From positions 2,852,001 to 2,916,000 of the forward strand of contig NZ_RJJY01000001.1 in assembly GCF_003751085.1 (NCBI RefSeq): a stretch of DNA of 64,000 nucleotides. Reading direction: 5' to 3'. Below the pieces are notes generated by a model. That model had not been told where the DNA came from and ran no database searches. It saw only the letters and a list, made by a program, of their open reading frames with translations. Within the stretch, counting starts at the first letter, position 1, and each line of letters starts with the position of its first letter. Positions 15,942 to 46,733 of this stretch are shown here, piece after piece. Origin of the DNA: Micromonospora sp. Llam0 (lineage in GTDB: Bacteria > Actinomycetota > Actinomycetes > Mycobacteriales > Micromonosporaceae). Made by a program: the position numbers and the translations under genes.

Positions 15942-16024
15942 GAGTGGTCAAGACCATTCACTCCCATGGAATGACGCGTCAATGACACCGCAGAAGAACC
16001 GGAGTGACTACCGGAGGTAACAGC

Positions 16025-18103: not shown

Positions 18104-18235
18104 CCGCACCCGGTATCCGGCGACTATCGATCGGGCATCGACCACTTTCGCTGGGTCGCCGGTCAGTCTCCGCGACCGCCGAGCGGGACAGCGAAGCGAT
18201 ATTCCATCGAAGTCGGTGACTGTTTTGCTGGCCGC

Positions 18236-21470: not shown

Positions 21471-22498
21471 GCCGGACCGTCGTCGTCACCGGAGCCGCCG
21501 GCATGCTCGGCTCCCACCTGGCCGCCCGGCTGCGCGCCGACGGTCACCACGTCCGTGGCGTCGATCTGCGCCCCGGGGTCGACGTCGCGGTCTCCGGCGA
21601 CGTGCGGGATCCGGCCGCGATGTCCCGGGCGGTGGCGGGTGCCGACGCCGTCGTGCACTGCGCGTCGGCGCTGCCCAGCTACCCGGTCGCCGAGATCCGG
21701 TCGATCGTCGTCGATGGCGCGCGGACCGTGCTGTCCGCCGCGGTCCGCGCCGGGGTGGCCCGGGTGGTGCACATCTCGTCGACCGCCGTCTACGGTCTGC
21801 CCCGGACCGTACCCACGACGGAGGAGCACCCCCGGGAGCCGGTCGACGCCTACAGCGCCGCGAAGACGGCCGCCGAGGAGTACGCCGAGCGGCTGCGCGC
21901 CGACGGCGCCTGCCTGCCGATCGTGCGGCCCAAGACATTCCTCGGCCCGGGCCGGATGGGGCTGTTCTCCATGCTGTTCGAGTGGGCCGAGGAAGGCCGC
22001 AACTTCCCGGTCATCGGCCGCGGCGACGTGCGCATCCAGATGCTCGCCCTGTCCGACCTCGTCGACGCGGTGACCGCCGTGCTGGACGCACCCGACACGG
22101 TGGCGAACGACACCTACAACATCGGCGCGGCCTCCTTCGGCACCTTGCGCGAGGACTTCCAAGCCGTACTCGACGCCGCCGGTTACGGCAGACGGGTGGT
22201 CTCGGTGCCGAGCCGCCCGGCGCTCGCGCTGCTCGGCACGCTCGAACGGCTGCGGTTGTCCCCGGTGTACGGACGTCTGCTGCACAAGCTCACCGCCGAC
22301 TCGTACGTCTGTATCGACAAGGCCCGGGACCGGCTCGGCTTCACCCCCCTCATGTCCAACCAGGACGCCATCCTCGACACCTACGCCTGGTGGCGTGACC
22401 AACGCAAGGAGCCCCGTGATGCTGCCCAGAACACCGGACGCACCAGCCGCGATCCCTGGAAGCAGGGGGCACTCGCCGCCGCCAAGGTCTTCTTCTGA
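21467..22498 (+). CDS. NAD-dependent epimerase/dehydratase
   Basis: A 343-residue extended SDR. The cofactor motif VVVTGAAGMLGSHLAARL is at the N-terminus, DVRDPAAM and ADAVVHCAS follow, and the catalytic Ser and Tyr-x3-Lys are in HISSTAVYG and DAYSAAKTAAEEYAERL. It probably oxidises, epimerises or reduces a nucleotide- or lipid-linked sugar. GTG 21467 overlaps the aminotransferase stop by 4 nt (GTGA), which fixes the start and the operon link. In many actinomycetes such an enzyme sits beside a UbiA-type polyprenyl-phosphate sugar transferase, as here. Confidence 0.87.
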   Translation: MSRTVVVTGAAGMLGSHLAARLRADGHHVRGVDLRPGVDVAVSGDVRDPAAMSRAVAGADAVVHCASALPSYPVAEIRSIVVDGARTVLSAAVRAGVARVVHISSTAVYGLPRTVPTTEEHPREPVDAYSAAKTAAEEYAERLRADGACLPIVRPKTFLGPGRMGLFSMLFEWAEEGRNFPVIGRGDVRIQMLALSDLVDAVTAVLDAPDTVANDTYNIGAASFGTLREDFQAVLDAAGYGRRVVSVPSRPALALLGTLERLRLSPVYGRLLHKLTADSYVCIDKARDRLGFTPLMSNQDAILDTYAWWRDQRKEPRDAAQNTGRTSRDPWKQGALAAAKVFF

Positions 22499-23354
22499 CC
22501 GTCCGGCCCGCACCAGCCTCGCCCGCGACCTGTTCGTGCTGCTGCGGCCCGGACAGTGGCCGAAGAACCTGGTGGTCCTGCTCGCGCTGCTGGACCCCGC
22601 GCTGATGGACTGGCGGGCCGCGGGCCGCCTCGGCGTCGCGGTCGGCGCGTTCGTCATCGCCGCCTCGGCCGTCTACGTGCTCAACGACATCGCCGACCGC
22701 GAACGCGACCGGGCCAGCCGGACCAAACGGCACCGGCCGATCGCGGCCGGACGGGTCACCCCCCGGACGGCGGCGCTGCTCGGAGTACTGCTGCTGGGCG
22801 TCCTCGCGGTGATCGTCGGCGACGCGCTGACCACCTGGTGGCCGCTGCTGGTGTACCTGCCGTTGAACCTCGCGTACAGCTTCGGCCTCAAGCACGTACC
22901 GCTGGTGGACCTGTTCGTCGTCGCCGCCGGCTTCGTGCTGCGGCTGGTGCAGGGCTACACGACGGTCGGGGCGCGGCCGCCCGGCTGGCTGGTGCTGTGC
23001 GTGCTGTCGGTGTGCCTGCTGCTCGTCCTCGGCAAACGCCGCCACGAGCTGCTCGCCGGCGAGGCCGCCCACCGGCCGTCGCTGGCCGGCTACAACCAGC
23101 ACCTGGTCGATGCGCTGCTGGTGCTGACCGCCGCCGCCACCCTCGTCACCTACCTGGCGTACGCCGCCACGGTCAGCGCCACCGGACTGCTGACCGTCCC
23201 GTGCGCGCTGTTCGCCCTCTTCCGCTACCTGCAGGTCGTGTTCGTCGACTCAGGTGGCGGCAACCCTGTCTCGGTGCTGCTGCGCGACCGGGTGCTGCTG
23301 GTCAACGCCGCGCTGTGGCTGCTGCTGCTGGAAGGGAGCCAGTTGCATGGATGA
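22419..23354 (+). CDS. UbiA-family prenyltransferase, polyprenyl-phosphate phosphoribosyltransferase-like
   Basis: An integral membrane transferase of about 311 residues. The Mg-diphosphate motif is NDIADRERDR, the second acidic region is GLKHVPLVDLFVVAAGFVLRL, and around eight to nine hydrophobic helices are visible. The opening LLRPGQWPKNLVVLLAL is typical of the decaprenyl-phosphate phosphoribosyltransferase (Rv3806c-like) branch. The likely reaction is transfer of a sugar phosphate to a polyprenyl phosphate. ATG 22419 follows AAGGAG by 7 nt; GTG 22416 and an in-frame ATG at 22395 are alternatives. It overlaps the epimerase gene by 80 nt in another frame. Confidence 0.85.
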   Translation: MLPRTPDAPAAIPGSRGHSPPPRSSSDRPARTSLARDLFVLLRPGQWPKNLVVLLALLDPALMDWRAAGRLGVAVGAFVIAASAVYVLNDIADRERDRASRTKRHRPIAAGRVTPRTAALLGVLLLGVLAVIVGDALTTWWPLLVYLPLNLAYSFGLKHVPLVDLFVVAAGFVLRLVQGYTTVGARPPGWLVLCVLSVCLLLVLGKRRHELLAGEAAHRPSLAGYNQHLVDALLVLTAAATLVTYLAYAATVSATGLLTVPCALFALFRYLQVVFVDSGGGNPVSVLLRDRVLLVNAALWLLLLEGSQLHG

Positions 23355-24348
23355 GCCGAAGGTGTCGGTCGTCGTCCCGATGTACAACGACAGCCGGACC
23401 ATCGACCTGTGTCTGGCGTCGGTGTCGACCCAGACCTACCCGGCGCACGAGATCATCGTGGTCGACGACGCCAGCACCGACGACAGCGCCGTACGTGCCG
23501 CCCGGCACTCCTGCACCCTCGTGCGGGCCGAGCGCAACGGCGGGCCCGGCGCCGCCCGCAACCTCGGCGTACGGCACGCCAAGGGCGACATCGTCTTCTT
23601 CATCGACGCGGACATGATCATGTATCCGGACGCGATCGGAAACGCGGTCACGTTGCTGTCCGGCCCGCGGGGGTACGGCGCGGTGTTCGGCGTACCGGAC
23701 AAGGTGCCGTTGTTCGTCGAAGGGCCGGTCGGGCAGTACCGCATCCTCCAGTACCACTACTGGCGGGTCAGCGCGCAGGGGGAGGTCAGCGGTGGCTTCT
23801 ACGCGCTCGGGGCGGTGACCCGCGCGGCGTTCGACGCCGCCGGCTGGTTCAACCCGGCGCTGCGGCAGACCGAGGAGATCGACCACGCGGAGCGGCTGTC
23901 CCGGCGGTACCCGATGCTGCTCACCGCCCGCGTCAGCGGGCGGCTCTCCGACGAGAGTCACCTGATACCCCTGCTGCGCAAGGCGTTTCGCCGCGCCCGG
24001 CTGCGGGTGCCGTTCTACCTGCGCCGCGGCCGGGCCATGCAGGGCATGGAGACCGGTGGCCGGGCCGCCGCGGCGGTGCTGGCCCTGCTCACGATGCTCA
24101 GTCTGCCGGCGGCGGTGGGGTACCCGCCGGTGCTGGTCGGTACCGCGCTGCTGCTGGCCGCGTTCGTCGCCGTCGACGCCGGCCAGTACGCGTTCGTCCG
24201 CCGCGAGCGGAGCTGGCCCTTCCTGGTCTTCTTCACCACGGTGCACCTGCTGGTCAACGCCACCGTCTCCGGTGGGCTCGCCGTCGGTGTCCTCACCTGG
24301 CTCACCAGCCGACAGTTCCGTCACATGTACGAAAGGACCGCGCCGTGA
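23347..24348 (+). CDS. GT2 glycosyltransferase with C-terminal membrane helices
   Basis: A 333-residue family 2 glycosyltransferase. It has VSVVVPMYNDSRTI, IIVVDDASTDDS, NGGPGAARNLG, the metal-site FFIDADMIMYP and the acceptor-side ETGR-like TEEIDHAERL. Three or four hydrophobic helices follow residue 235. The overall plan and motifs parallel the first half of the 18236-20083 protein, so the two arose by duplication and one gained a flippase-like domain. It begins at ATG 23347, 8 nt inside the UbiA gene, and ends overlapping the EEP gene by 4 nt. Confidence 0.87.
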   Translation: MDEPKVSVVVPMYNDSRTIDLCLASVSTQTYPAHEIIVVDDASTDDSAVRAARHSCTLVRAERNGGPGAARNLGVRHAKGDIVFFIDADMIMYPDAIGNAVTLLSGPRGYGAVFGVPDKVPLFVEGPVGQYRILQYHYWRVSAQGEVSGGFYALGAVTRAAFDAAGWFNPALRQTEEIDHAERLSRRYPMLLTARVSGRLSDESHLIPLLRKAFRRARLRVPFYLRRGRAMQGMETGGRAAAAVLALLTMLSLPAAVGYPPVLVGTALLLAAFVAVDAGQYAFVRRERSWPFLVFFTTVHLLVNATVSGGLAVGVLTWLTSRQFRHMYERTAP

Positions 24349-25550
24349 CGATCGACGACATCGCCGGATCCCCTGCCCCGGCCACCGGCCCTCCGCTCAC
24401 CGGCCGGAGCGAGCCACGGTGGCGGCGCGTGGCTCGGGCCCTGCGCCGTTGGTACGGCTGGCTGCTGATCGCGGTGGCGGTGCTGTGGCTGGGCTACAAC
24501 GTCGTACGTCGCGCCGCCACCGGCAGATGGCACTGGTCGATCCTGCTCGACGCGGTGCCGCCGGTGTTCCTCGTCGCCGTGCCGCTGCTGCTGCTCGGGC
24601 TCAGCGCCGCCGCCTGCGGCCCGCGTCGGCGGTGGGCCGCCGCCCTGGCTCTGGCCGGGCTGCTGCCCGGCATCGACCAGTCCGGCGTCAACCTGCACGC
24701 GCTGCGGCCCGGCGACCGACCCGTCCCGGCCAGCGCGGTGCATGTGGTGAGTTGGAACACCAACTACTGGGGCATGAGCAACGACGACCCGCAGGCGCAG
24801 CTCAGGTTTCTGAAACGGCTCGACGCCGACGTGTACCTGTTGCAGGAGCATGTGATCTGGGTGCCCGGCACCGGCGAGATCGGCTATCACCCGATCCGGG
24901 ACGACGCCAGGTTGCAGGCGGAGTTCCCCGGCTACCACATCGTGCGCCGCAGTGAACTCGTCACCATCTCCCGGTTCCCGGTCGTGGCCACGCCGGTCTT
25001 CGGCCCGGCCGCGCAGCTGCCCCCGGACGCACCGTTCAACCAGGTGTTCAGCCGGGACAAGGTGCTGCGCACCGACCTGCGCGTGGGGGACAGCACCGTT
25101 TCGGTCTACAACGTGCACGTCACCGTGCCCACCGCCATCGACCTGAGCATCCTGCGGCCCCAGGTCGACCCGGACGCGTACTTCCGTCGCAAGTTCGACT
25201 GGCGGCAGGCCGAGGTGCAGGGTCTGGTCGACGATCTGCAGGCCAACCCGAACCCGTCGATCATCTCCGGCGACTTCAACGCCACCTCGTCGATGGGGAC
25301 GCTCGACCCGCTGCGGGCGGTGGCCGAGGACGCCACCACGGCAAGCCGCCACCTGCTGCCGATGAGCTGGCGGTTCAACGCCCCGATGACCTTCCAGTGG
25401 GACAACCCCCTCGCCGGCCTGCCGCTGCCGTTCTGGCGGATCGACTGGACGTTCACCGCAGGTCCGGTCACGGTGCACCGGTACGAACTGGCGTCCGCGG
25501 AGTACCTGTCCGACCACCGGCCGCAGCATCTGTGGTTCTCGGTAGGTTGA
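24345..25550 (+). CDS. Membrane-anchored endonuclease/exonuclease/phosphatase-family hydrolase
   Basis: A 401-residue EEP-fold protein. After a Pro-rich start there are three hydrophobic segments (about residues 38-125; for example GWLLIAVAVLWLGYNVV), then an extracytoplasmic EEP domain. Catalytic signatures are VSWNTNYWG, DADVYLLQEH, a YNVHVTVP strand, the key IISGDFNATSS and C-terminal EYLSDHRPQ. Such domains hydrolyse phosphodiesters; in this operon a phospho-lipid-linked sugar is a reasonable but unproven substrate. GTG 24345 overlaps the GT2 stop (GTGA). It is the last gene of the sugar module, with 201 nt before the exporter. Confidence 0.85.
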   Translation: MTIDDIAGSPAPATGPPLTGRSEPRWRRVARALRRWYGWLLIAVAVLWLGYNVVRRAATGRWHWSILLDAVPPVFLVAVPLLLLGLSAAACGPRRRWAAALALAGLLPGIDQSGVNLHALRPGDRPVPASAVHVVSWNTNYWGMSNDDPQAQLRFLKRLDADVYLLQEHVIWVPGTGEIGYHPIRDDARLQAEFPGYHIVRRSELVTISRFPVVATPVFGPAAQLPPDAPFNQVFSRDKVLRTDLRVGDSTVSVYNVHVTVPTAIDLSILRPQVDPDAYFRRKFDWRQAEVQGLVDDLQANPNPSIISGDFNATSSMGTLDPLRAVAEDATTASRHLLPMSWRFNAPMTFQWDNPLAGLPLPFWRIDWTFTAGPVTVHRYELASAEYLSDHRPQHLWFSVG

Positions 25551-25751
25551 CGGGTCGCGCCCTGCTTCTAGGGAAAGTAGATGTTGATCAGATCGATGAC
25601 GTCCCATACTCTGACGGGCGGTAGTCATCACGTAACGACGAGCCAATGGCGACCGCCGTCCCTGGGGGCACAGATTGCCGCACCCTTCCTGCTCCGCCGA
25701 TCACCCCCCACGACCGAGGCCGCCGGCGCCTGACGTACCCGCCGGCCGATC
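25551..25751. promoter_or_regulatory. Gap between the sugar module and the exporter/PKS-NRPS genes
   Basis: Two hundred nucleotides without a gene, the only sizeable gap inside the cluster after the SARP gene. It may hold a second promoter for the exporter and assembly-line genes. I saw no certain promoter or terminator hairpin. Confidence 0.35.
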
Positions 25752-27053
25752 GTGACCGTCACGGACCAGGACCCGGGGCGTACCGGCAGCGGGATGCGGC
25801 ACTTCCGGTTCCTGGTGGTCGGCAACGCGGTCTCGGCGTACGGCACCTATCTGGACATGATCGCGCTGAGCCTGTTCGCGTACTCGCTTACCGGCAGCGC
25901 CACCCACACCGGGCTGTTCATGGCGTTGCGCCTGGCGACCAGTGTCCTCACCGGATTCGGCGCCGGCAGTCTGGTGTCCCGGCTCGACCGCAAGCGGCTC
26001 ATGGTGACCTCCGACGTCAGCCAGGCGGTCGCCCTGGTCGTGCTGGTCATCGCGCCGACCACGGCCCAGGCGGGCCTGTTGTACGCCGTCGCGGTCGTCA
26101 CCGGCGCCGGGGCGACCGTCACCAGCGTCGCGCTGCGCAGCAGCATCCCCGAGATCGTCGGGCAGGACCAGCGGGTCCGGGCCAACGCACTGCTCGCCAC
26201 CGGCCGGTCGCTGGCGATGGTCGCCGGGTTCGCCTCGGCCGGAGTGCTCATCTCCACGGTCGGCTACACCGGTGCGTTCCTCATCGACGCCGGGGCGTTC
26301 CTCTTCTCGGCCGCGGTCCTGGCCCGGCTGCCGATCACCACCCGCAGCCGACAGCCGGTATCCGCGACAGGCACCGAAACGGACCCCGGGCCGGGCACCG
26401 CGGCAGGCCCCGAGCCGGACGACGCGCGGCGGCGGCCCGGGATCCTCGCCGCGCAGTTGACGGCCCTGCGCTACCTGCGGCTGACCCCGGTCCTGCTCGC
26501 GCTGATCAGTCTGCGCGCCGTCGACGCCTTCGGCTCGGCCTCGCACAACGTCGGCCTGCCGGTGCTGTCCACCATGCTGGACCCGCAGCATCCGGCCGCG
26601 TTCATGTCCCAGTTCTGGGCCACCTGGGCGATCGGCAACATCATCGCGCAACGCGGGGTCGCCCGCTGGGCCAGACGCACCGGCCGGACCATCAACGAGC
26701 GCGCGTTCGCCGCCGGCGCGGCGCTCATGTCGGTGGCCTTCATCCTCACCTTCACCGCGCCGCCGCTGCCGCTGGCCGTCCTGGTCGCCACCGTCGCCGG
26801 CGTCGCCGACGGCTTCACCGAGATCGCCTACACCACCCGGCTGCAGGCCACCCCGGACGATCAACGCGGGTACGTCTTCGGGTTCTCGGCGACCGCGGAG
26901 AACCTCGGCTTCGGCGTCGGCATGGTGGCCTGCTCCTTTCTGCTGGAACAGTTCAGTCCGTTGACCGTGGTCACTCTGTTCCACGGGCTGGCGGTGCTGC
27001 TGGCAGTGGCGTTCCTGGCCACGCTGTGGGCGCGCCGGCGGACGACGACATGA
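25752..27053 (+). CDS. MFS transporter, probable product exporter
   Basis: A 433-residue major-facilitator protein of the EntS/MFS_3 type with about twelve hydrophobic helices and a polar, Pro/Ala-rich central loop (about residues 200-230). Motif A-like SRLDRKRLM lies between helices 2 and 3, and GYVFGFSATAENLGFGVG is in the C-terminal half. It ends 4 nt inside the PKS-NRPS start, so the two are translationally coupled and export of the assembled product is the likely role. GTG 25752 lacks a good RBS; an in-frame ATG at 25794 is an alternative start that would drop 14 polar residues. Confidence 0.85.
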   Translation: MTVTDQDPGRTGSGMRHFRFLVVGNAVSAYGTYLDMIALSLFAYSLTGSATHTGLFMALRLATSVLTGFGAGSLVSRLDRKRLMVTSDVSQAVALVVLVIAPTTAQAGLLYAVAVVTGAGATVTSVALRSSIPEIVGQDQRVRANALLATGRSLAMVAGFASAGVLISTVGYTGAFLIDAGAFLFSAAVLARLPITTRSRQPVSATGTETDPGPGTAAGPEPDDARRRPGILAAQLTALRYLRLTPVLLALISLRAVDAFGSASHNVGLPVLSTMLDPQHPAAFMSQFWATWAIGNIIAQRGVARWARRTGRTINERAFAAGAALMSVAFILTFTAPPLPLAVLVATVAGVADGFTEIAYTTRLQATPDDQRGYVFGFSATAENLGFGVGMVACSFLLEQFSPLTVVTLFHGLAVLLAVAFLATLWARRRTTT

Positions 27054-30000
27054 GCGCCCCGACGCGCGGTGGCACCGACGACCGGCGGATCGCCATCATC
27101 GGCATGGCGTTGCGGCTACCCGGCGCGGACACCCCGCAGGCGTACTGGCACAACATCCGCGACGGCGTGACCAGCGTACGCAGGTTCAGCCCCACCGAGT
27201 TGACCAACGCCGGGGTACCGGAGCAACTGCGCGAGTCACCCGATTTCGTCGCCGTCAGCGGAGTGCTCGACGACATCGACTCGTTCGACGCCGAATTCTT
27301 CGCAATGAGCGCGCAGGAGGCGCGCACCGTCGACCCGCAGCACCGGCTGTTCCTGCAGACCTGCTACCACGCACTGGAGAACGGCGGATACGCGGCGACT
27401 CGACCCGGCACGCGGGTGGGTGTCTTCGCCGGTGTCGGATACCACCTCTATCCCCTCAACACCTACCTGCGCAACAACCTGGCCAACGCCCGCTGGGACG
27501 GTGACTTCGCCCCCGCTTTCCAGGTGGCGGTGGGAAACTACAGCGACTTCGCCGCCACCCGGGTCGCGTACCGGCTCGGCCTGACCGGCCCGGCGGTCAC
27601 CGTACAGAGTGGCTGCTCGACCGCGCTGGTGGCCGTCCACCTGGCCGGACAGGCGTTGCTCGCCGGCGACGCCGACCTGGCCCTGGCCGGCGCGTCGGCG
27701 GTGCACACCCCGCAGATCCTGGGCTACCGCCACGTCAAGGGCACCATCCTGTCCCGGTCCGGCCGGTGCCGCGCGTTCGACGCGTCGTCCGACGGCACCG
27801 TCGGCGGCAACGGGGTCGCGGCGGTGCTGCTCAAGCGGTACGACCGCGCGGTCGCCGACGGGGACACCATCCACGCGGAGATCCTGGGCGGCGGGGTCAA
27901 CAACGACGGTGCCGCGAAGACCAGCTACGCCGCGCCCAGCGCCGCCGGGCAGCGCGACGCCATCCTGCGGGCGCTCGACGTGGCCGGGGTCTCCCCCGAG
28001 ACGATCGGCTACCTGGAGACCCACGGCACCGGCACCTACAAGGGCGACCCGATCGAGTTCGACGCCATGACCTCGGCCTACCGCCGGCACACCGACCGGA
28101 CCGGCTACTGCGCGATCGGCTCAGCCAAGCCGGCCATCGGGCACCTGGATGCCTGTGCCGGCATGGCCAGCCTGATCAAGACGGTGCTGGTGCTGCGGCA
28201 CGCGACGATCCCGCCGTTGGTCGGGTTCGAGCGCCCCAACCCGGCGTTGGACCTGGCGGCCAGCCCGTTCGTCATCCCCGCCGAGGCTCGTGCCTGGCCC
28301 GACCTGCCCGGGCCCCGCCGGGCGGGAGTGACCGCGCTCGCGGTCGGTGGCACCAACGCCCACCTGATCCTGGAGGCACCACCACCGGCGCGACCGGCGC
28401 CGGCGGCGACGGCACGCCTCGGCCCGGCGCATCACGAGGCGGAAGAATCCGGGGCGGCACAGCCTGCGACGGCCGGCCCGGTGCCGGTGCCGGTGTCGGC
28501 GCACCACCCGGACAGTCTGCGTACGCTCGCCCGCCGGATGCGCGACCACCTGCGGGCCGACCCCGGTCTCGACCCGGCCGACCTGGCCACCACCGCCGCG
28601 CTCGGCCGGCCACACCTGCCGTACCGACTCGTCGTGACCGGCGCGACGACGGCGGCGCTCGCCGACGCCCTGGACGACTACCTCGCCGCTGCGGGGCGGC
28701 AACGCCCGGCGCGGGTGGCTACCGGCTCGGTGCCGGGCGCCGGCGTCGCCGCCGGTGGGCTCGGCGGGGTGGCGCCGGTGGTGCTGTACGGCGGGCAGGG
28801 CGCCTCGTACCCGGGCATGGCCGCAGCGCTCTACCGGCGGTACCCGCAGATGCGGGCGGTGCTCGACGCCTGCGAGTCGTACCAGCTTCGCACCGGCGGG
28901 CTGTCGGTGCTGACCCCGCTGCTCGCCACCGACGCCGGTGATGACCGGATCTGGCCGGCCGACGTAGCGCAGCCTGCGCTGTTCGCGTTCCAGGCCGCGC
29001 TGACCCGGCTGTGGCGCTCGCTCGGAGTGGCGCCGCGACTCGTCGCCGGCCACAGCATCGGCGAGTACGCGGCCCTGGCCGCGGCCGGCGCACTGTCGAT
29101 CGAGGACGGACTGCGACTCACCGGGATACGTGGGCGGCTGATGCGGCAGCACATCACGCCCGGCGGGATGGTCGCGGTCTTCGCCGACCGTGCCGTGGTC
29201 GACGAGGTGCTCGCCACCGACGGGCGGCTCGACCTCGCCGCGATCAACGCGGCCGGGCAGCACGTCGTCGCCGGACCGGTCGAGGCGCTCGACGCCGGCT
29301 GCGGGGTGCTGGACCGTCTCGGGTTGCGCTGGCACCGGCTCGCCGTCGACCGCGCCTTCCACTCGGCGCTGCTCGACCCGATCCTCCCCCAGCTGGGCGA
29401 GGCATTCGAGTCGGTCCCGTGGGCGCCCCTGGACACGCCGCTGGTCAGCAGCGTGGACGGCACCGTGCTGCCGGTCGGGCACCGGCCGGACCCGGCGTAC
29501 CTGGTGCGACAGACCCGGATGCCGGTCCGGTTCGACCTGGTCACCGCCAGGATCGCCGCCGAGACAGCCGAGACGTCGGCCGCCGCCGAGCCGGCCGGTG
29601 TGCCGGTGCTGGAGCTCGGTCCACAACCGAACCTGGTCGGGCTGCTGCGCTCGGCTCTGCCCGGATCGCCGGTGCTCGCCGCACAGCGCCGGGGCGCGGA
29701 ACTCGATCAGGTCATCGACAGCTGCGCCCGGCTGCACGTGCACGGGGTCGACCTGGACTGGGCCGCCCTGCTCGGTCCTGACCGCGCACGCCGGGTGCCG
29801 CTGCCGGCGTATCCGTTCCAGCGGCGAGTCCACTGGACCGGACCGCCGCTGGTACGAACCGAACCTGGAGGGTCGATGGTCGACGTTGACACCGTCCGCG
29901 AGGCTGGCTCCGCGATCTCCGCCGGTCCGACCGCGCCGGACCTCGCGCCGGTGGTCGAGCGGGTACGCGAGATCAGTGCCCGGCACCTCGGCTGCGCGCC

Positions 30001-33000
30001 GGACGACATCGTCGTCGACCGGCCGTTCGTCGAGATGGGCGCCGACTCGCTCGCCATGATCAACGCGCTGCGGGAGTTCGAAGGAGAGTTCGGTGTCCGA
30101 CTCGCCATGCGCGAACTGTTCGAGGAGGCGGACACCCCGGGCAAACTGTCCCGGCTGATCCTGTCCCGTCAGGCCGCAGCCCCGCACCAGGCCCAGGCCC
30201 CAGCCCCGGCCCCGGCCGTCCCGTCAGTACCGCCATCGCCCGTACCAGCTGCGGCTCCGGCGGCACCGGACGTCGACGTGCACGGGCCCAGGGTGGTCGT
30301 GGCGCCCGACAGCGGTCAGGTCGGTGCGGTCGCCAGCGACCGCGGCCGGGCCCATCTGGACGACCTGCGGCGACGGTTCGTGGCGAAGACCCGGCGGTCG
30401 AAGGAGATCGCCCAGCGCCACCGTGGTGTGCTCGCCGACAGCAGGGCGGTCGTCGGCTTCCGCAGCGCCACGAAGGAGATGCTGTACCCGATCGCCGGCC
30501 ACCGCGCCAAGGGCGCATGGCTGGAGGATGTGGACGGCAACCGGTACGTCGACATCACCATGGGCTTCGGGGTGCTGCTGTTCGGCCACGAGCCGGACTT
30601 CGTCGCCGACGCGGTCCGGGAGCATCTGTCCCGAGGCGTCCAACTCGGACCGCGCAGCGTCGACACGGGCGAGGCCGCGCGGCTGTTGAGCGAGCTGACC
30701 GGGATGCCCCGGGTGGCGTTCGCCAACTCGGGCACCGAGGCGAACTCGGCCGCGATCCGGCTCGCCCGGGCCGCCACCGGACGCGACAAGATCGTCATGT
30801 TCCACGGGTCGTACCACGGACACGCCGACAACGTGCTCGGCCGCTCGGTCGGGACGGGAGCGGACCGGACCACCGTCCCGGTCAGCACCGGCATCCCGGC
30901 CAGCGCCGTCGCGGACCTGGTCGTGCTCGACTACGGCGTACCGGAAAGTCTGCGGGTGATCGAGGCGCTCGGTGAACAGTTGGCCGCCGTCGTGGTCGAG
31001 CCGGTGCAGAGCCGGCACCCGTCGCTGCAGCCGGCGGAGTTCCTGCGCCGGCTCCGCGACATCACCCGGCGGTACGGCATCGTGCTGTTGTTCGACGAGA
31101 TGCTCACCGGGTTCCGGCCCCATCCGCGCGGCGCCCAGGGCCTGTTCAACGTGACCCCGGACCTCGCCACGTACGGCAAGCTGCTCGGCGGCGGCTTCCC
31201 GATCGGGGCGATCGCCGGACGCGCCGACATCATGGACGGCGTCGACGGCGGTTTCTGGCGCTACGGCGACGACAGCCGCCCGCAGCGGGAAACGACCTTC
31301 TTCGGCGGCACCTACATCCAGCATCCGGTGTCCATGGCCGCCGCGCGCGCGGTGCTGACCCGGTTGACCGAGCACAGCCCACGACTGCAGCAGGAGCTCA
31401 ACGCCCGGACCGATCGGCTCGTCGGCACGCTGAACGACTTCTTCGCCGAGGAGGAGTACCCGCTGCGGCTGAATCACGTCGGCTCGCAGTTCCGCTTCGA
31501 GCACCGCGCCGACCTCGAGCTCTTCTACCACCACCTGCTACTCAAGGGGGTGTACGTCTGGGAGTGGCGCAACTTCTTCCTCTCCACCGCGCACACCGAT
31601 GACGACGTCGACCTGGTGATCGACGCGGTACGTGCCTCGCTACGCGAGATGCGCGCCGGCGGGCTGCTCCCCCGTCCGGCCGGCACCGCCGTACCCACGG
31701 CAAGACCGAACGGCACCGCCCGAACCGAACCGACGGTACGGACCGAACCGGCGGTGCGCGCCGAGCCGGCAGCGAGTGCCGCAGCGGCGGGCAGCCTCGA
31801 ACCGGCGAGCGGACCGGGACGACCGGCACCGGACTTCAGCGTGTACTTCTTCGGGGACTATCCGCCCGGCTCGGGGGCTGCCGACCCGTACGAGCTGATC
31901 GTCGACACGGCCCGCTTCGCCGACCGGCACGGATTCCACGCGCTGTGGATTCCCGAGCGCCACTTCCATTCCTTCGGCGGGGTGTTCCCCAACCCGGTGG
32001 TGCTGGCCGCCGCGCTGGCCCGCGAGACGAGCCGGATCCGGCTGCACGCCGGATCGGTGGTCCTGCCGCTGCACGACCCGATCCGGGTCGCCGAGGACTG
32101 GTCCATGGTCGACCGGCTGTCCGGCGGGCGGGTCGGCATCGGCTGCGCGCCCGGATGGCACGCGGGCGACTTCGTCCTCGCCCCGGAACACTTCGGTACC
32201 CACCGCGACGTGATGTACCGCCACCTCGACCAGGTACGCCGGCTGTGGCGTGGCGAGGCCGTCGAACGGCGCAGCGGCACCGGCGAACCGGTCGAGATCC
32301 GCACCCTGCCCCGCCCGGTGCAGGCGATGCCGCCGATGTTCGTCGCCGTGGTGGGCAACCCGGAGTCGTACCAGCGGGCCGCCGAGCACGACCTCGGCAT
32401 CGTGACCAACCTGATGAGCCAGTCGGTGGAGCAGTTGGCCGACAACATCCGACGCTACCGTAAGACCCGCGCCGCGCACGGGCTCGACCCGCACGGCGGC
32501 CGGGTGGTCGTGCTCGTGCACACCTACCTCGGTGCGGACTCGGCCCGGGCGCGGGCCGAGGCGTTCGCGCCGCTGAAGGCGTACCTGCGCTCCTCGCTGT
32601 CGCTGTTCGGGCAGCTGACCAACAGTCTCGGATTCCAGGTGGACCTCGACACCGCCGACGCCGACGACCTGGACTACGTGTTCCAGCGCGCCTACCACCG
32701 GTACTGCGAGGCACGGGCGCTGATCGGATCGCCGGACGATGGCGCGCGGCTGATCGACGCGCTCACCGCCGCCGGCGTCGACGAGGTGGCCGCGCTGGTC
32801 GACTTCGGCGCATCCCCCGACCAGGTGCGGGCCGGGCTGCCGCAGCTGGACCGGCTACGGGCCAGCTACCAGGCGCCGGCCGACACGCCAGCGGGCAGGC
32901 AGGCGGCGACCGGCAGCCCCGTGGCCGTCCGCGACGCCGGACCGGACCGGACCGGACCGGCGTCGCGCGGGCAGGCGCGGATGTGGTTCCTCGAACGGCT

Positions 33001-36000
33001 GCATCCGGGCCAGGGCACCTACAACGAGGCGGTCACCGTACGGCTCGACGGTCCGCTGGACGTGTCGGCGCTGCGGGCCGCGCTGGACCGGCTGGTGGTC
33101 CGCCACGCGGCGCTGCGTACCGTGTTCCGGGAGCGCGACGGCGAGCCGGTCCAGGTCATTCTCGGCCGGGGCACAGCGGAGCTCACCGTTGAGGAGCACG
33201 CCGGGCGTGCCGAGAGCGACACCGTACGGCAGGTGCTGGCCGAGGAGAGCCGGCGCGGGTTCGACCTCGCACAGGGTCCGCTGCTGGTGACCCGGCTGCT
33301 GCGCTGGTCGCCCGAGCGGCACGTACTGGTGCTGTCCTTGCACCACATCGTGGTCGACGCCGCGTCGGTGCGGGTGCTGGCCGGGGATCTCTCCGCCTTG
33401 TACCGGGCCGCACTCGACGGCCGGCCCGCCGACCTGCCGGAGCTGCCGGTGGACTGCCTGGACCTGGCCCGGCGGGAGGCGGATGCCGGCAGCGGGTCGC
33501 CCGGTGAGCCGGCCGGTCTGGCCTACTGGCGGGGGCGACTGGCCGGGGAGCTGCCGGTGCTGGACCTGCCGACCGACCGACCACGCCCGACGGTACGCGG
33601 TGGCACCGGCGCGTCGGTCCGGCGCCGGCTCGACCCGCAGCTGTCCGGGCTGCTGAGCCGGCTCAGCGGCGCGCACCGGGCCACGCTGTTCATGACGGTG
33701 CTCGCCGGGTACGCGGCCACGCTGCGCCGGTTCACCCGCAGCGATCAGCTGGTCGTCGGAACACCGGTGTCGGTCCGGCCATCCGGCGCCGAAGCAGTGG
33801 TGGGGTTCTTCCTCAACACGGTGGCCCTGCGGCTGGACCTGTCCGGCGACCCGACCTTCGCCCACCTGCTCAAGCAGGTCCGCGACACCGCCCTGGACGC
33901 GTACGACCATGCCGACGTGCCGTTCGACGCCGTCGTCGGCGCGGTCAGCCCGGACCGGGACACCAGCCGGACGCCGGTCTTCCAGACCATCGTGGAGTTC
34001 GACAACGGCGGCGACCCGCTCCCACTCGACCTGCCCGGGGTGACCGCCCGCACCCTGGCGCACCGGTCCGAACGGGCGGTGACCGACCTGGCCCTGTACG
34101 TGACCAACCACGCCGACGGGATCGACTGCCGGTTGGAGTACGGCACCGACCTGTTCGCGGCGGACAGCGCCGAGCGGCTGCTGTCGTATCTGGTCGCGAT
34201 CCTGGCTGCCGCCGTCGACCAGCCCGACACGCCGATCTCAGCGCTGGTCGGCGTCCTCGACGCCGACCGGGAGACGCTGGCCCGCTGGGGCGTTGGACGG
34301 CAGCGTGACCTGCCGCCCGGTGGCGTGCCCGACGCGGTGCTGCAGTGGGCGCACCGCACCCCGCAGGCGGTCGCGGTGATCGGTGGCGGTACGGTGCTGA
34401 CCTACCGGCAACTCGACGAGCAGGCCACCGCTTTGACCCAGCGGCTGGCCCGGCACGGGATCGCCGCAGGCGACATCGTGGCGCTGTGGCTGCCCCGGTC
34501 GCCGCAGTTCGTCGTCGCCGCCCTGGCGGTGCTGCGCGCCGGAGCCGCGTACCTGCCGTTGGATCCGTCCCTCGACGGCCGGCAGGTGCGTTTCATGGTC
34601 TCGGACAGCGCGGCCCGGGTGGTGCTGGCCACCGGGGGTGACACCGCGCCGGACCTGCCCGACGGGGTCCGCCTGCTGCACGTCGACGAGTCCGGCGATG
34701 GTGATCCCGTCGGCGGATACGGCGACGATCCCAGCCGCGCGGCGGACGTTCCGGATCCGGCGTGCTACGTCATGTACACCTCCGGTTCCACCGGCAGGCC
34801 GAAGGGTGTGGTCATCACCCACCGCAGCGTGCTGAACCTGTGCCAGTGGTACCGCGACGAGCTGGAGCTGACCGCCGCCGACCGTGGTGCCGTGGTGTGT
34901 GGGCAGAGCTTCGACGCCTCGGTGCTGGAGATCTGGCCGCCGCTGCAGGTCGGCGCGAGCCTGACGATCGCCGACGATGCCGTACGGCTGGACTCGATGG
35001 CGCTGGCGCGCTGGATGCGTACCGCCGGGGTGAGCGTCGCGATGCTGCCCACGCCGCTCGGGGAAGGGTTGCTCTCGCTGCCTGTCGCGGCCCAGCCCCG
35101 GCTGCGCCACCTCACCGTCGGCGGCCAGCAACTGCGGGTACGCCCACAGCCCGGGGTGCCGTACGTGGTACGCAACGTGTACGGACCGACCGAGACGACG
35201 GTCATCGCCACGTCCGAGGTGGTGGCGTCGGCGTCCGCCGGGTCCGACGGTCCGATTCCGATCGGCCGGCCGCTGGACAACGTCCGCGTCGAGATCCGCG
35301 ACGAATGGGGCAACCTGGCTCCGGTCGGCGCCGTCGGGGAGCTGTTCATCGGCGGTGCCGGAGTGGGTCGTGGCTACCTGAACCGGCCCGAGTTGACCGC
35401 TCAGCGGTTCGTCGACGACCCGGCCGGCGGTGCCGGTTCCCGCCGCTACCGCACCGGGGACCTGGTGCGGTGGACCGCCGACGGGGTGCTGGTGTTCCTC
35501 GGCCGTACCGACGACCAGGTCAAGATCCGGGGGAACCGGGTCGAACCAGGCGAGGCGTCGGCGGTGCTACGCGGGCTGGATCTGGTCGCCGACGGCATCG
35601 TGGTGGCCCGCCGGGACCGCCGCGACGAGCCGTACCTCGCCGGGTACGCCGTGCCCGCGCCGGGTGTGGCATCCGACGGGCTGGCCGACCGGGTCGTCGC
35701 CGCGATGGCCCGCGAACTGCCCGATGTGCTGATCCCCCGGGTGTGGGCGGTGCTGCCGGCGCTGCCGCAGACCGGCAACAACAAGGTCGACCACGCCGGG
35801 TTGCCGGAGCCGACCATCCGTACCGGCGTGCCCGCGCCATCGGTGGCCCGACCGGTTCCCCGGCCGCCGACACCGCAGCCGGCGGCCCACCCGCCGACAC
35901 CGCAGGCAACGGCCCCGCGCGACGGTGGGACCGGTGACGCGCTGACCGGGACGGTGCGGGCGCTGTGGGCCGCCGAACTCGACCTGGATCCGGAACGCAT

Positions 36001-36208
36001 CGACCACGGCGCGTCGTTCTTCGCCCTCGGCGGGCATTCGATCAACGCGATGCGCCTGCTCAACCGGGTACGCGAGGCCACCGGAGCGGACTATCCGGCG
36101 TTGGAGTTCTTCCGCGCCCCGACCATCACGGCGATGGTGGGCCGGCTACGCGGGCACGTCACGTCCGCCGACGACGGGCCCACCCGCCGGGTACGGGGCA
36201 CGCTGTGA
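27050..36208 (+). CDS. Hybrid PKS-NRPS: KS-AT-ACP-AMT-LLM-C-A-PCP
   Basis: A 3052-residue assembly-line enzyme. Domains: ketosynthase (about 12-440; Cys189 in QSGCSTA, His325, His365), malonyl-type acyltransferase (577-885; Ser669 in GHSIGEY, AFHS), ACP (969-1041; Ser1000 in GADSLAM), class III aminotransferase (1094-1534; PLP Lys1377 in ATYGKLLGGG), luciferase-like FMN monooxygenase (1595-1941), condensation (1969-2397; His2098-His2099-x3-Asp2103 then Ala, not Gly), adenylation (2421-2921) and PCP (2962-3034; Ser2997 in GGHSINAM). Predicted chemistry: extend an acyl starter by malonate, turn the beta-keto into an amine, hydroxylate the alpha carbon, then condense with an amino acid. This is the microginin-type MicA/McnA order without a fatty-acyl ligase. 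My reading of the A-domain code is D-A-L-M-T-G-V-V-I-K, nearest a known tyrosine code. ATG 27050 overlaps the exporter stop. Confidence 0.93.
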   Translation: MSAPTRGGTDDRRIAIIGMALRLPGADTPQAYWHNIRDGVTSVRRFSPTELTNAGVPEQLRESPDFVAVSGVLDDIDSFDAEFFAMSAQEARTVDPQHRLFLQTCYHALENGGYAATRPGTRVGVFAGVGYHLYPLNTYLRNNLANARWDGDFAPAFQVAVGNYSDFAATRVAYRLGLTGPAVTVQSGCSTALVAVHLAGQALLAGDADLALAGASAVHTPQILGYRHVKGTILSRSGRCRAFDASSDGTVGGNGVAAVLLKRYDRAVADGDTIHAEILGGGVNNDGAAKTSYAAPSAAGQRDAILRALDVAGVSPETIGYLETHGTGTYKGDPIEFDAMTSAYRRHTDRTGYCAIGSAKPAIGHLDACAGMASLIKTVLVLRHATIPPLVGFERPNPALDLAASPFVIPAEARAWPDLPGPRRAGVTALAVGGTNAHLILEAPPPARPAPAATARLGPAHHEAEESGAAQPATAGPVPVPVSAHHPDSLRTLARRMRDHLRADPGLDPADLATTAALGRPHLPYRLVVTGATTAALADALDDYLAAAGRQRPARVATGSVPGAGVAAGGLGGVAPVVLYGGQGASYPGMAAALYRRYPQMRAVLDACESYQLRTGGLSVLTPLLATDAGDDRIWPADVAQPALFAFQAALTRLWRSLGVAPRLVAGHSIGEYAALAAAGALSIEDGLRLTGIRGRLMRQHITPGGMVAVFADRAVVDEVLATDGRLDLAAINAAGQHVVAGPVEALDAGCGVLDRLGLRWHRLAVDRAFHSALLDPILPQLGEAFESVPWAPLDTPLVSSVDGTVLPVGHRPDPAYLVRQTRMPVRFDLVTARIAAETAETSAAAEPAGVPVLELGPQPNLVGLLRSALPGSPVLAAQRRGAELDQVIDSCARLHVHGVDLDWAALLGPDRARRVPLPAYPFQRRVHWTGPPLVRTEPGGSMVDVDTVREAGSAISAGPTAPDLAPVVERVREISARHLGCAPDDIVVDRPFVEMGADSLAMINALREFEGEFGVRLAMRELFEEADTPGKLSRLILSRQAAAPHQAQAPAPAPAVPSVPPSPVPAAAPAAPDVDVHGPRVVVAPDSGQVGAVASDRGRAHLDDLRRRFVAKTRRSKEIAQRHRGVLADSRAVVGFRSATKEMLYPIAGHRAKGAWLEDVDGNRYVDITMGFGVLLFGHEPDFVADAVREHLSRGVQLGPRSVDTGEAARLLSELTGMPRVAFANSGTEANSAAIRLARAATGRDKIVMFHGSYHGHADNVLGRSVGTGADRTTVPVSTGIPASAVADLVVLDYGVPESLRVIEALGEQLAAVVVEPVQSRHPSLQPAEFLRRLRDITRRYGIVLLFDEMLTGFRPHPRGAQGLFNVTPDLATYGKLLGGGFPIGAIAGRADIMDGVDGGFWRYGDDSRPQRETTFFGGTYIQHPVSMAAARAVLTRLTEHSPRLQQELNARTDRLVGTLNDFFAEEEYPLRLNHVGSQFRFEHRADLELFYHHLLLKGVYVWEWRNFFLSTAHTDDDVDLVIDAVRASLREMRAGGLLPRPAGTAVPTARPNGTARTEPTVRTEPAVRAEPAASAAAAGSLEPASGPGRPAPDFSVYFFGDYPPGSGAADPYELIVDTARFADRHGFHALWIPERHFHSFGGVFPNPVVLAAALARETSRIRLHAGSVVLPLHDPIRVAEDWSMVDRLSGGRVGIGCAPGWHAGDFVLAPEHFGTHRDVMYRHLDQVRRLWRGEAVERRSGTGEPVEIRTLPRPVQAMPPMFVAVVGNPESYQRAAEHDLGIVTNLMSQSVEQLADNIRRYRKTRAAHGLDPHGGRVVVLVHTYLGADSARARAEAFAPLKAYLRSSLSLFGQLTNSLGFQVDLDTADADDLDYVFQRAYHRYCEARALIGSPDDGARLIDALTAAGVDEVAALVDFGASPDQVRAGLPQLDRLRASYQAPADTPAGRQAATGSPVAVRDAGPDRTGPASRGQARMWFLERLHPGQGTYNEAVTVRLDGPLDVSALRAALDRLVVRHAALRTVFRERDGEPVQVILGRGTAELTVEEHAGRAESDTVRQVLAEESRRGFDLAQGPLLVTRLLRWSPERHVLVLSLHHIVVDAASVRVLAGDLSALYRAALDGRPADLPELPVDCLDLARREADAGSGSPGEPAGLAYWRGRLAGELPVLDLPTDRPRPTVRGGTGASVRRRLDPQLSGLLSRLSGAHRATLFMTVLAGYAATLRRFTRSDQLVVGTPVSVRPSGAEAVVGFFLNTVALRLDLSGDPTFAHLLKQVRDTALDAYDHADVPFDAVVGAVSPDRDTSRTPVFQTIVEFDNGGDPLPLDLPGVTARTLAHRSERAVTDLALYVTNHADGIDCRLEYGTDLFAADSAERLLSYLVAILAAAVDQPDTPISALVGVLDADRETLARWGVGRQRDLPPGGVPDAVLQWAHRTPQAVAVIGGGTVLTYRQLDEQATALTQRLARHGIAAGDIVALWLPRSPQFVVAALAVLRAGAAYLPLDPSLDGRQVRFMVSDSAARVVLATGGDTAPDLPDGVRLLHVDESGDGDPVGGYGDDPSRAADVPDPACYVMYTSGSTGRPKGVVITHRSVLNLCQWYRDELELTAADRGAVVCGQSFDASVLEIWPPLQVGASLTIADDAVRLDSMALARWMRTAGVSVAMLPTPLGEGLLSLPVAAQPRLRHLTVGGQQLRVRPQPGVPYVVRNVYGPTETTVIATSEVVASASAGSDGPIPIGRPLDNVRVEIRDEWGNLAPVGAVGELFIGGAGVGRGYLNRPELTAQRFVDDPAGGAGSRRYRTGDLVRWTADGVLVFLGRTDDQVKIRGNRVEPGEASAVLRGLDLVADGIVVARRDRRDEPYLAGYAVPAPGVASDGLADRVVAAMARELPDVLIPRVWAVLPALPQTGNNKVDHAGLPEPTIRTGVPAPSVARPVPRPPTPQPAAHPPTPQATAPRDGGTGDALTGTVRALWAAELDLDPERIDHGASFFALGGHSINAMRLLNRVREATGADYPALEFFRAPTITAMVGRLRGHVTSADDGPTRRVRGTL

Positions 36209-37692
36209 CCTTCGACGAGCTGCTGGAGTACGTCGCCGTGCACGACGTGCGGCTCACCGGCACCGGCGACGCCCTGCACTACGACGCCCCGGCCGCCGCG
36301 ATGGGTCCGCAGCTGGTCACGGCGCTGCGGTCGTACAAGGGCGAACTGTTGCGGTGGCTGGCCGCACCGGCTGATCAGCGGGAGGTGACCCGGGCGCCGC
36401 TGTCGGCCCAGCAGGAGAGGGTGATGGAGGTCGCCGGGCGTAGCACGCACCCGGCCAGCTGGAACGTCGGGTTGCGGCTGGAACTGGTCGGCGCCCTCGA
36501 CGTCGCCGCGCTCGACGCCGCGCTCGACGGCCTCGTCGCCCGGCACCATGCGTTGCGCGCCCGGCTGATCCGCGACGGTGGCACCTGGACCCAGCGGATC
36601 CTCGCCCACCGGTCGGTCCCGCTGCCCGTCGACGAGCTGGCCGCGCTGGCGCCGGACGCGGCGCGGCGGCGGGCCGAGACCCTCTGCCGGGAGGTGGTGT
36701 CGCCGGTGTTCGCGCTGGCGGACGAGGCACCGGTGCGGTTCACGCTGATCCGGCTGTCGCCCGACGAGTCCTGGCTGGTGCTGGTCCTGCATCACGTCGC
36801 CTGCGACGGTCGGGCGGTCACCGTACTGCTGCGCGAGCTGGCGGACGGGTACCGCACCGCCCGGGACGCAGGTGCGCCGGACTTCGGTCCACCCGCCGCC
36901 CAGTGCACCGACTACGCACGCTGGCAGCAGGGCCAGTGGGACGAGCCGACCCGCCGCCGGCGGCTGGCCTACTGGGCGGAGCACCTGGGCGACGGGCCGC
37001 TGGCGCTGGATCTGCCGTTCGACCGCCCCGTACCGCAGCAGCCGAGTGGGCAGGCCGCCACCTGTCGGTTCGAGATCCCGGGACAGGTTCGGCTCGCCGT
37101 CGAGGTGCTCGCCCGCGAGCTGGGCGCCACGGTGACCGCGGTCGCCGCTGCGGCGTTGGCACTGCTGCTCGCCCGGCTCAGCGGACAACCCGACGTGGCC
37201 CTGTCGATGCCGTACGCCAACCGGTCACCCCGGGCGTACGAGGACACCGTCACCGTGCTGGCGACGGCGTTGCCGGTACGGATCCGTACGGCCGCCGCCG
37301 CGACGTTCGCCCACCTGGTCTGCCAGGCCGCCGACGGCCTGTTCGCCGGCATCGACAATCTGCTGCCCACGGCCTGGATCTACCAGCAGCTGCCCGCGCC
37401 GGACAAGGGCGCAGTGCCGTCCGGGATGACAGTGAGCTTCGCCTTTCAGAGTACGTTCGACACCCGGATCGAGCTGCCGGAGTTGGCGGTCCGGGTGCAC
37501 GAGGTGCCGACCGGGGTCGGGCGGGCGGCGCTGCTGATCGTCCTGATGCCGGGCCCGGACGGGATAGACGGCTATCTGGAGTACCCGGTGGACCGACTCG
37601 ACGACGACACCGTCCGCCGCTGGATGACGAGGTACGTCGACCTGCTCGCCTCGGCGTGTGCCGGCCCGAACCGCCTACTTGCCGACCTCTGA
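36205..37692 (+). CDS. Free-standing NRPS condensation domain with TubC docking domain
   Basis: A 495-residue NRPS protein. Residues 1-53 match a TubC-type N-terminal docking domain (FDELLEYVAVHDVRLTGTGDAL to YKGELLRWL), which would dock on the C-terminus of the preceding megasynthase. Residues 62-490 form a condensation domain with intact HHVACDG and the latch region MPYANRSPRAYEDTVT. No adenylation, carrier or thioesterase domain follows. It overlaps the PKS-NRPS stop by 4 nt (GTGA). A terminal C domain could release the chain by joining it to a free amine, for example an amino sugar or amino acid, instead of hydrolysing it; that role is inferred. Confidence 0.9.
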   Translation: MTFDELLEYVAVHDVRLTGTGDALHYDAPAAAMGPQLVTALRSYKGELLRWLAAPADQREVTRAPLSAQQERVMEVAGRSTHPASWNVGLRLELVGALDVAALDAALDGLVARHHALRARLIRDGGTWTQRILAHRSVPLPVDELAALAPDAARRRAETLCREVVSPVFALADEAPVRFTLIRLSPDESWLVLVLHHVACDGRAVTVLLRELADGYRTARDAGAPDFGPPAAQCTDYARWQQGQWDEPTRRRRLAYWAEHLGDGPLALDLPFDRPVPQQPSGQAATCRFEIPGQVRLAVEVLARELGATVTAVAAAALALLLARLSGQPDVALSMPYANRSPRAYEDTVTVLATALPVRIRTAAAATFAHLVCQAADGLFAGIDNLLPTAWIYQQLPAPDKGAVPSGMTVSFAFQSTFDTRIELPELAVRVHEVPTGVGRAALLIVLMPGPDGIDGYLEYPVDRLDDDTVRRWMTRYVDLLASACAGPNRLLADL

Positions 37693-37731
37693 CCGCCGGA
37701 GTCGTCCACCAAGCCGCCGGAGTCGTCCGCC
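37693..37731 (+). repeat. 21-bp-period direct repeat after the C-domain stop codon
   Basis: CCGCCGGAGTCGTCCACC (37693-37710) and CCGCCGGAGTCGTCCGCC (37714-37731) follow directly after the TGA at 37690-37692. The period is 21 bp, and read in the same frame as the C-domain gene it gives a Pro/Glu/Ser-rich linker-like peptide (PPESSTKPPESSAEG). The high third-position GC of this stretch ends near 37755. Confidence 0.6.
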
Positions 37732-46004: not shown

Positions 46005-46158
46005 AGTCCACAGTCTAGCGATTCGGTCGTGAGCCGTGGGGTGGCGTGTGGGGTGGACGCCGATCCGCCCTGGCGGCGGATCGGCTTTCCCTGCCCTGCT
46101 CCGCAGGAGTTCCGTTTCCTCCCCGGCCGCAACGCCGGAGTATCCACGGAAGGAATCC

Positions 46159-46722: not shown

Positions 46723-46733
46723 CGCCTCGCCGG

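Follow-up and report, generated by a model that had tools for sequence, protein, structure and literature searches.

A PKS-NRPS operon of Micromonospora sp. Llam0 predicted to make a short, amine-capped, bestatin-like peptide

The stretch of Micromonospora sp. Llam0 DNA analyzed here (64,000 nucleotides, hereafter the window) carries at 25575-37692 what is probably a self-contained synthesis-and-export operon making a short, amine-capped, bestatin-like peptide. This conserved unit consists of an MFS exporter, a PKS-NRPS synthase and a stand-alone condensation protein, and adjoining genes overlap by 4 bases each (Table 1). The prediction that the synthase product carries an alpha-hydroxy-beta-amino acyl unit is well supported by the sequence.

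Table 1. Features of the synthase unit and its surroundings. Residue ranges are Pfam matches; catalytic positions are assigned from known motifs.
Feature	Position	Strand	Remarks
Neighboring seven-gene unit, predicted to be separate and not part of the synthase operon	16004..25550	+
Leader, start of conserved unit	25575..25751	+	promoter-like pair TTGATC...CATACT, by eye
MFS exporter	25752..27053	+	PF07690, 3.8e-31; ATGA overlap with synthase
PKS-NRPS, 3,052 aa	27050..36208	+
Ketosynthase (KS)	27083..28228	+	ketoacyl-synt 12-266, C-terminal part 275-393; C189, H325, H365; no loader ahead
Acyltransferase (AT)	28784..29566	+	Acyl_transf_1 579-839; GHSIGE, RAFH; S669, H771
Acyl carrier domain (ACP)	29897..30154	+	around S1000, limits approximate; one of two PP-binding stretches
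Class III beta-aminotransferase (AMT)	30488..31564	+	Aminotran_3 1147-1505; PLP lysine K1377
MupA/Atu3671-type FMN luciferase-like monooxygenase (LLM)	31838..32785	+	Bac_luciferase 1597-1912
Condensation domain (C)	32957..34279	+	Condensation 1970-2410; HHIVVDA; H2099, D2103
Adenylation domain (A)	34343..35785	+	AMP-binding 2432-2777, C-terminal part 2839-2912; nine-residue code DALMTGVVI; K2912
Peptidyl carrier domain (PCP)	35951..36145	+	best PP-binding stretch, 2968-3032; S2997
C-terminal tail RVRGTL of synthase, predicted docking strand	36188..36205	+
Stand-alone condensation protein, putative release function	36205..37692	+	GTGA overlap with synthase
TubC-type docking domain, a1-b1-b2-a2-a3	36211..36363	+	PF18563, 28.2 bits (cut-off 26); Y26, D27
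Condensation domain of stand-alone protein	36391..37686	+	HHVACDG intact

Results

Limits and conservation of the unit

The limits of the unit were drawn from six genomes: DNA similarity to G001, G003, G006 and G016 begins at 25575-25580, and it stops at 37688-37693 in the last three of these. In the aligned leaders, TTGATC is found in five of six rows and CATAC[CT] in all six; a consensus promoter scan returned no site in the leader, and neither a terminator nor a consensus promoter was detected at either end of the unit at the scan thresholds. The MFS gene adjoins the synthase gene in all five synthase-bearing relatives, and of 53 related loci, 23 have an MFS homolog, which is partial in one case. 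Among 21 hand-picked family loci, the KS match lies 71-228 bases past the MFS match in 15 and 4.1-4.9 kb away in four, the MFS match being absent from the remaining two.

Pfam analysis of 40 window ORFs revealed no decarboxylase. Gene clustering (359 genes from part of the window, five relatives and 31 loci, identified with a crude gene caller that missed known genes in some loci) yielded no more than four families that recur in over five loci: those of the synthase, the MFS protein, the KS-AT-ACP protein and the C protein. No acyl-supply gene common to many loci emerged from this clustering, and nothing found in the sequence fixes the starter.

A single-polypeptide synthase

The mechanical ORF of the synthase opens at 25646, and its initial 468 codons mostly overlie the MFS gene in another frame. 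The database copy of the protein (P0001) has 3,052 residues, which places the start at 27050. Pfam analysis bore out the domain order originally predicted for this one polypeptide, KS-AT-ACP-AMT-LLM-C-A-PCP, with E-values for the main domains of 1.4e-28 to 2.1e-90; of its two PP-binding stretches, we assign the one other than the PCP to the ACP, centered on Ser1000. Catalytic residues, predicted to be intact, are indeed present, though the C motif of the module, HHIVVDA, has an A in place of the usual final G, as it does in the Streptomyces protein P0036. The AT had been called malonyl-specific, and it contains the two motifs that we take to be malonyl-type. The A-domain code can be read only as that of a 'neutral, hydrophobic' residue, and nothing finer. 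Upstream of the KS, a Pfam search of the synthase and neighboring ORFs detected no adenylation or carrier domain; the MFS gene is directly upstream.

The predicted alpha-hydroxy-beta-amino acyl unit

The LLM scores 451.1 bits against the TIGR04020 (MupA/Atu3671) profile, whose curated cut-off is 244.45. Its nearest solved relative is puwainaphycin PuwE (6KET, 394 bits), and that of the aminotransferase is mycosubtilin MycA (6KFM, 437 bits); the roles of these enzymes are described in passages of PMC4219810 and PMC3870968, respectively. Neither domain appears dead: the window sequence deviates at none of the 55 columns conserved at 97% or more in the LLM alignment (138 rows, window included), and its sole departure from the 101 columns conserved at 98.5% or more among 168 AMT rows is at an alignment-edge column. 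In a quick tree of 119 of the 141 LLM rows collected, which leaves out MupA itself and other reductases, the synthase LLM clusters with LLMs of assembly lines and is separated from stand-alone ones; three of the four stand-alone LLMs of the window sit beyond a branch of 5.2. Within the limits of such a tree, the domain thus falls inside the natural-product group. Taken together, the domain order, the malonyl-type AT, the beta-aminotransferase and the assembly-line LLM lead us to predict an alpha-hydroxy-beta-amino acyl unit, as was originally proposed for the AMT-LLM pair. A preprint (PMC13252402, in part) ties such an AMT-monooxygenase pair to a 3-amino-2-hydroxy unit demonstrated by NMR.

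The stand-alone condensation protein

The docking-plus-condensation protein at 36205-37692 had escaped the original prediction. The structure model of its docking domain has a pLDDT of 90, and the top fold hits of the protein are elongation C domains. Tails of the RVRGTL type terminate 21 of the 25 listed homologs that end in a PCP, against none of the 93 that end in a C domain, a pattern framed after 17 tails had been viewed and in which many PCP-ending rows are close kin; the split loci L007, L012 and L021 end instead in EEGTL.

According to sections of PMC6195595, Kj12C is a stand-alone C that uses a free amine as acceptor of the chain; its strand b2 is bound by the final five residues of the partner protein. 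The counterparts here are V-R-G-T-L and Y26-D27, matched by position and not by computed alignment; so matched, they agree with the Kj12 pattern at the glycine, at the hydrophobic residues on either end and at one salt bridge, the second Kj12 salt bridge having no counterpart. In being separate and in having an N-terminal docking domain and an intact HHxxxDG, the protein resembles an RXP-type terminal C, and by analogy it may serve in amine release.

Proposed pathway

We infer that an acyl thioester of general metabolism would prime the KS directly, since there is no loading domain. The AT would put malonyl on the ACP for condensation by the KS, the aminotransferase would convert the beta-ketone to a beta-amine and the LLM would then hydroxylate the alpha carbon, giving, to judge from studied relatives, a 3-amino-2-hydroxy acyl unit whose amine is free. 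Once the C-A-PCP module had appended a single residue of neutral, hydrophobic character, transfer to the separate condensation protein would follow, this protein being recruited because the RVRGTL tail is predicted to pair with strand b2 of the TubC-type docking domain. Joining to a free small-molecule amine would release a short, amine-capped, bestatin-like peptide, for export by the MFS protein. The labels 'lipo- or aryl-peptide' and 'aminopeptidase inhibitor' are likewise ones that we infer for this product.

Discussion

The original prediction placed the synthase in a SARP-controlled operon with sugar-lipid genes. The upstream block (SARP, GT2-TM, class III AMT, epimerase, UbiA, GT2 and endo/exonuclease-phosphatase) does abut the synthase unit within about 25 bases (limits 25552 and 25575-25580), and the two are adjacent and co-oriented in the window and in G005. 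The block carries its own aminotransferase, and G006 (39%) and G016 (31%) have weaker homologs of the SARP upstream, as might be expected if all these genes formed one pathway in which the aminotransferase/epimerase/UbiA block made the amine acceptor or a decoration. Such a pathway is nevertheless very improbable, given that the two parts are separable across relatives: G002, of the same genus, has the seven-gene block without AMT-LLM synthase or MFS ortholog, whereas in G001, G003 and G006 (same genus) and G016 the synthase unit is present but the 20 kb preceding it lack the block. The synthase unit has, moreover, its own conserved leader and distinct limits. One operon is therefore not supported, and the block is better regarded as a different unit.

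Two further alternatives concern the chemistry. The actinomycete relatives L043-L049 keep the LLM where no AMT is detected, so the two need not pair, and the LLM might catalyze another reaction, for example oxidation on to an alpha-keto-beta-amino acyl unit, or none; its retention of every highly conserved column and the AMT-LLM order shared with PuwE and with Planktothrix and Microcystis loci make this decidedly unlikely. Release without an outside amine, although doubtful, deserves more weight: the stand-alone C might cyclize the chain through attack of the beta-amine or alpha-hydroxyl on the aminoacyl thioester, or form an ester, or only permit hydrolysis. Clustering revealed no amine-forming gene common to many loci, and the fold hits include C domains of other roles, namely the enacyloxin chain-release C 6cgo (chain release being taken from its title), SgcC5 (4znm), CmnI (9uay) and HtmB2-CT (8z0q). 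Against this, a separate last protein made of a docking domain plus C matches Kj12C, which is reported to use a free amine, and we retain amine capping as the preferred reading.

The combination in its SARP and sugar-lipid setting had been considered unfamiliar; the synthase is in fact one member of a large actinomycete family. A sample of 392 genomes from what we take to be the genus Streptomyces includes 73 with an LLM at E <= 1e-100, not all with the synthase architecture, and in the open-access literature, subscription papers lying outside this scope, no product is named for that architecture among the matches listed. Bestatin, with its single added residue, leaves the terminal C unexplained. 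P0036 is named S. olivoreticuli, and two overlapping samples of 392 and 394 genomes contained no match above 86% identity. Bestatin is produced by S. olivoreticuli, as stated in a passage of PMC10675184, and a genome paper on strain ATCC 31159 appears by title in the reference list of PMC12472026. It is a quite tentative idea, and rather unlikely to hold in full, that the family represents a widespread class, not so far recognized as one, of bestatin-like inhibitors with an amine cap, built by a microginin-type warhead module that delivers its chain to an amine-capping C of the rhabdopeptide type, and that P0036 may be, or be near, the bestatin synthetase. The inhibitor head should be of a known, metal-binding kind. 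Bestatin and amastatin exemplify the class of short aminopeptidase inhibitors; if the proposed pathway is right, such compounds are made by an assembly-line family that is common in Streptomyces and relatives, and the release domain offers a route to altering the end group. The link between tail motif and separate C protein provides a directly testable docking rule.

Comparison with known systems

Microginin synthetases share the order KS-AT-ACP-AMT-LLM-C-A-PCP; AMT-LLM follows KS-AT-ACP in Planktothrix L024 and Microcystis L026, which we take to be microginin loci, going by species. Microginin has a FAAL and ACP loader that the present synthase lacks, and two or more NRPS modules plus a thioesterase, whereas here one module is followed by a docked C protein. 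The AMT-plus-monooxygenase likeness to microginin that was originally proposed stands. Mycosubtilin MycA also has an embedded beta-aminotransferase, but it has a fatty-acyl loader and no alpha-hydroxylase, unlike the synthase here. For microginin, part of a review (PMC12250027) describes a PKS module, an aminotransferase and then NRPS leading to 3-amino-2-hydroxydecanoyl, the monooxygenase being unnamed there. PuwE resembles our synthase in having AMT and monooxygenase between PKS and NRPS module, but belongs, according to sections of PMC4219810, to an extended assembly line for a cyclic lipopeptide, one that includes FAAL and a methylating PKS. Streptomyces lines of the form KS-AT-ACP / AMT-LLM-C-A-PCP-C (for example P0024 and P0036) contain the same domains, with an MFS neighbor in many loci, and occupy the neighboring LLM clade in the quick tree; a similar S. 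griseus protein, G0PR31, is tabulated in PMC3870968. Rhabdopeptide/xenortide Kj12ABC of Xenorhabdus shares the separate terminal C protein and the docking domain, and its recruitment by a short C-terminal strand and its free-amine release (PMC6195595, in part) are what we predict here; it has no PKS or warhead part.

The synthase and its predicted warhead domains

The PKS-NRPS gene encodes 3,052 residues arranged as KS, AT, ACP, class III aminotransferase (AMT), LLM monooxygenase, C, A and PCP. This order, together with catalytic residues in place (judged by their motifs), had been seen in the sequence by the original prediction, and was confirmed by translating 27050-36208 and by a domain search. 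A longer mechanical ORF from 25646 was rejected since its first part overlies the MFS gene in another frame; the database copy (P0001) also has 3,052 residues, in contrast to that ORF.

Coordinates of features within the window
Feature	Position	Strand	Content
Transposase genes	8601-9812, 10641-11909, 44793-46178		OrfB/IS605-type and IS110-type; flank the region on both sides
SARP/sugar block	16004-25550		Seven genes: SARP, GT2-TM, class III aminotransferase, epimerase, UbiA, GT2, endo/exonuclease-phosphatase
Synthase unit	25575-37692		MFS exporter, synthase, C protein
Leader element	25664-25680		GGGGGCACA..TTGCCG
Synthase	27050-36208	+	PKS-NRPS
C protein	36205-37692		Stand-alone condensation protein
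Apparent catabolic cluster	46015-62648	-	PaaX-type regulator, enoyl-CoA hydratase, AMP ligases, acyl-CoA dehydrogenases, four stand-alone LLMs

The LLM scores 451 bits against TIGR04020 (MupA/Atu3671 FMN-dependent LLM; cut-off 244), and its best solved-structure match is PuwE (6KET, 394 bits; next best 91 bits). For the AMT, the best is the mycosubtilin aminotransferase (437 bits), with glutamate-1-semialdehyde aminomutases behind (213). A catalytically dead LLM or AMT was looked for, but both keep their most conserved columns (138 and 168 aligned rows, including the window itself and near-duplicates). In published work, the MycA AMT domain is reported to take its amino group from Gln and to act on a beta-ketothioester carried by an ACP (PMC3870968), the 3-amino-2-hydroxy pattern of puwainaphycins is assigned to AMT plus monooxygenase (PMC4219810), and a 2026 preprint ties a similar pair to an NMR-placed unit (PMC13252402).

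A quick tree of 119 of the 141 LLM rows collected, comprising neither MupA nor a broader reductase set and accompanied by a long-branch warning, places the window LLM in a 12-row Micromonosporaceae clade (SH-aLRT 100), nested in a 48-row, mostly Streptomyces, actinomycete clade (SH-aLRT 99). The synthase is a member of the TIGR04020 LLM family as well as of this actinomycete family; a placement outside natural-product monooxygenases was not seen in this tree. LLMs of the cyanobacterial AMT-LLM lines group separately. Of the four stand-alone LLMs in the window, three sit past a branch of 5.2; the minus-strand genes around these LLMs appear to serve catabolism and to have no connection with the synthase. 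Taken together, profile and structure matches, conserved columns and tree support well the predicted alpha-hydroxy-beta-amino acyl warhead.

Two variant lines were observed. Loci of Mycobacterium persicum (L036) and M. attenuatum (L037) have a KS-ACP-AMT-LLM-C-A line with a long LLM branch. Eight actinomycete loci (L043-L049, L051) keep the LLM before C-A-PCP, no AMT being found with the window AMT domain; their products might be alpha-hydroxy acids devoid of the beta-amine.

Two adjacent units

The original prediction placed the synthase within one SARP-controlled operon with sugar-lipid genes. The full AMT-LLM stretch is present in five of seven genomes of the genus (G000, the window's own, G001, G003, G005 and G006) and, among 61 genomes searched, in a single relative from another genus (G016); MFS, synthase and C protein adjoin in all five synthase-bearing relatives. 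The seven-gene block, whose order is kept in G002 and G005, lies within 20 kb upstream of the synthase unit in G005 alone among these five, SARP homologs also occurring upstream in G006 (39%) and G016 (31%). G002 carries the block at 83-96% identity, order unchanged, yet this genome has neither AMT-LLM nor an MFS ortholog; in the 60 kb read there was also no MFS or C protein match, and the synthase matched only a 33% aminotransferase. G004 has neither unit.

DNA similarity with G002 ends at 25552, 2 bases past the last stop of the block, while that of the synthase unit begins at 25575-25580 in G001, G003, G006 and G016 (in two pieces in G016) and ends at 37688-37693 in the latter three, continuing downstream in G001 and G005. 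Six genomes share a conserved synthase-unit leader; TTGATC occurs in five of them and CATAC[CT] in all six, a pair spotted by eye; a consensus promoter scan of this leader found none. Because block and synthase occur apart, have distinct limits, and the synthase unit has its own conserved leader, SARP control of the synthase, though conceivable, is unsupported, and two units replace the single operon. The leader element is invariant across six genomes except at two positions, and could be an operator. The block's UbiA is closest to decaprenyl-phosphate phosphoribosyltransferase (178.5 bits, below the cut-off of 234), and its product is possibly a polyprenyl-linked amino sugar.

A condensation protein predicted to dock

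The C protein gene overlaps the synthase stop through GTGA. The protein combines a C domain bearing HHVACDG with a docking domain of the TubC type (PF18563, scored on a longer frame at 28.2 bits for a cut-off of 26); 16 of the 23 homologs found (P0121-P0136) contain these two Pfam families and nothing else. In a structure model (17 related sequences; mean pLDDT 90, pTM 0.87), its N-terminus runs a1-b1-b2-a2-a3, the element order of the docking domains of the rhabdopeptide synthetase Kj12. According to PMC6195595, which also describes that order, the last five residues of the Kj12 partner, L-R-G-E-I in our reading, form a strand alongside b2, with R1565-E28 and E1567-R24 pairs; L1564 and I1568 are buried, and a glycine stacks on Y27. 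The last five residues of the window synthase are V-R-G-T-L and, matched by position, the C protein has Y26 (nearly invariant in 17 aligned rows) and D27 (invariant) at the corresponding site; unlike in Kj12, the E1567-R24 pair has no counterpart.

Among the 120 synthase homologs listed, many of them close kin, the terminal pattern RV[RQEKT]G[TASVRE][LV], defined after 17 of these tails had been seen, occurs in 21 of 25 ending in a PCP and in none of 93 ending in a C domain (two end otherwise), the rows being sorted by their own terminal domain only. The four PCP-ending exceptions are three near tails, RVRGAI twice and RVAGTL, and one unlike tail; split loci L007, L012 and L021 have EEGTL instead.

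Comparison with known systems

The sequence itself shows the domains with their residues and order, the overlaps between genes, the limits of the unit and a correlation of tail with architecture. By analogy with relatives, malonyl extension would be followed by beta-transamination, alpha-hydroxylation and addition of one hydrophobic residue, after which the docked C protein would release the chain onto a free amine and the product would be exported. That it may inhibit aminopeptidases is argued from bestatin and from microginins (PMC12250027). The likeness to microginin synthetase concerns the working of the warhead module; the window unit lacks the loader, the later modules and the thioesterase of that system and is therefore not a microginin synthetase. 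The release onto a free amine is the interesting, if predicted, part of the unit: as far as sequence and model can say, the end of the unit would work like rhabdopeptide release.
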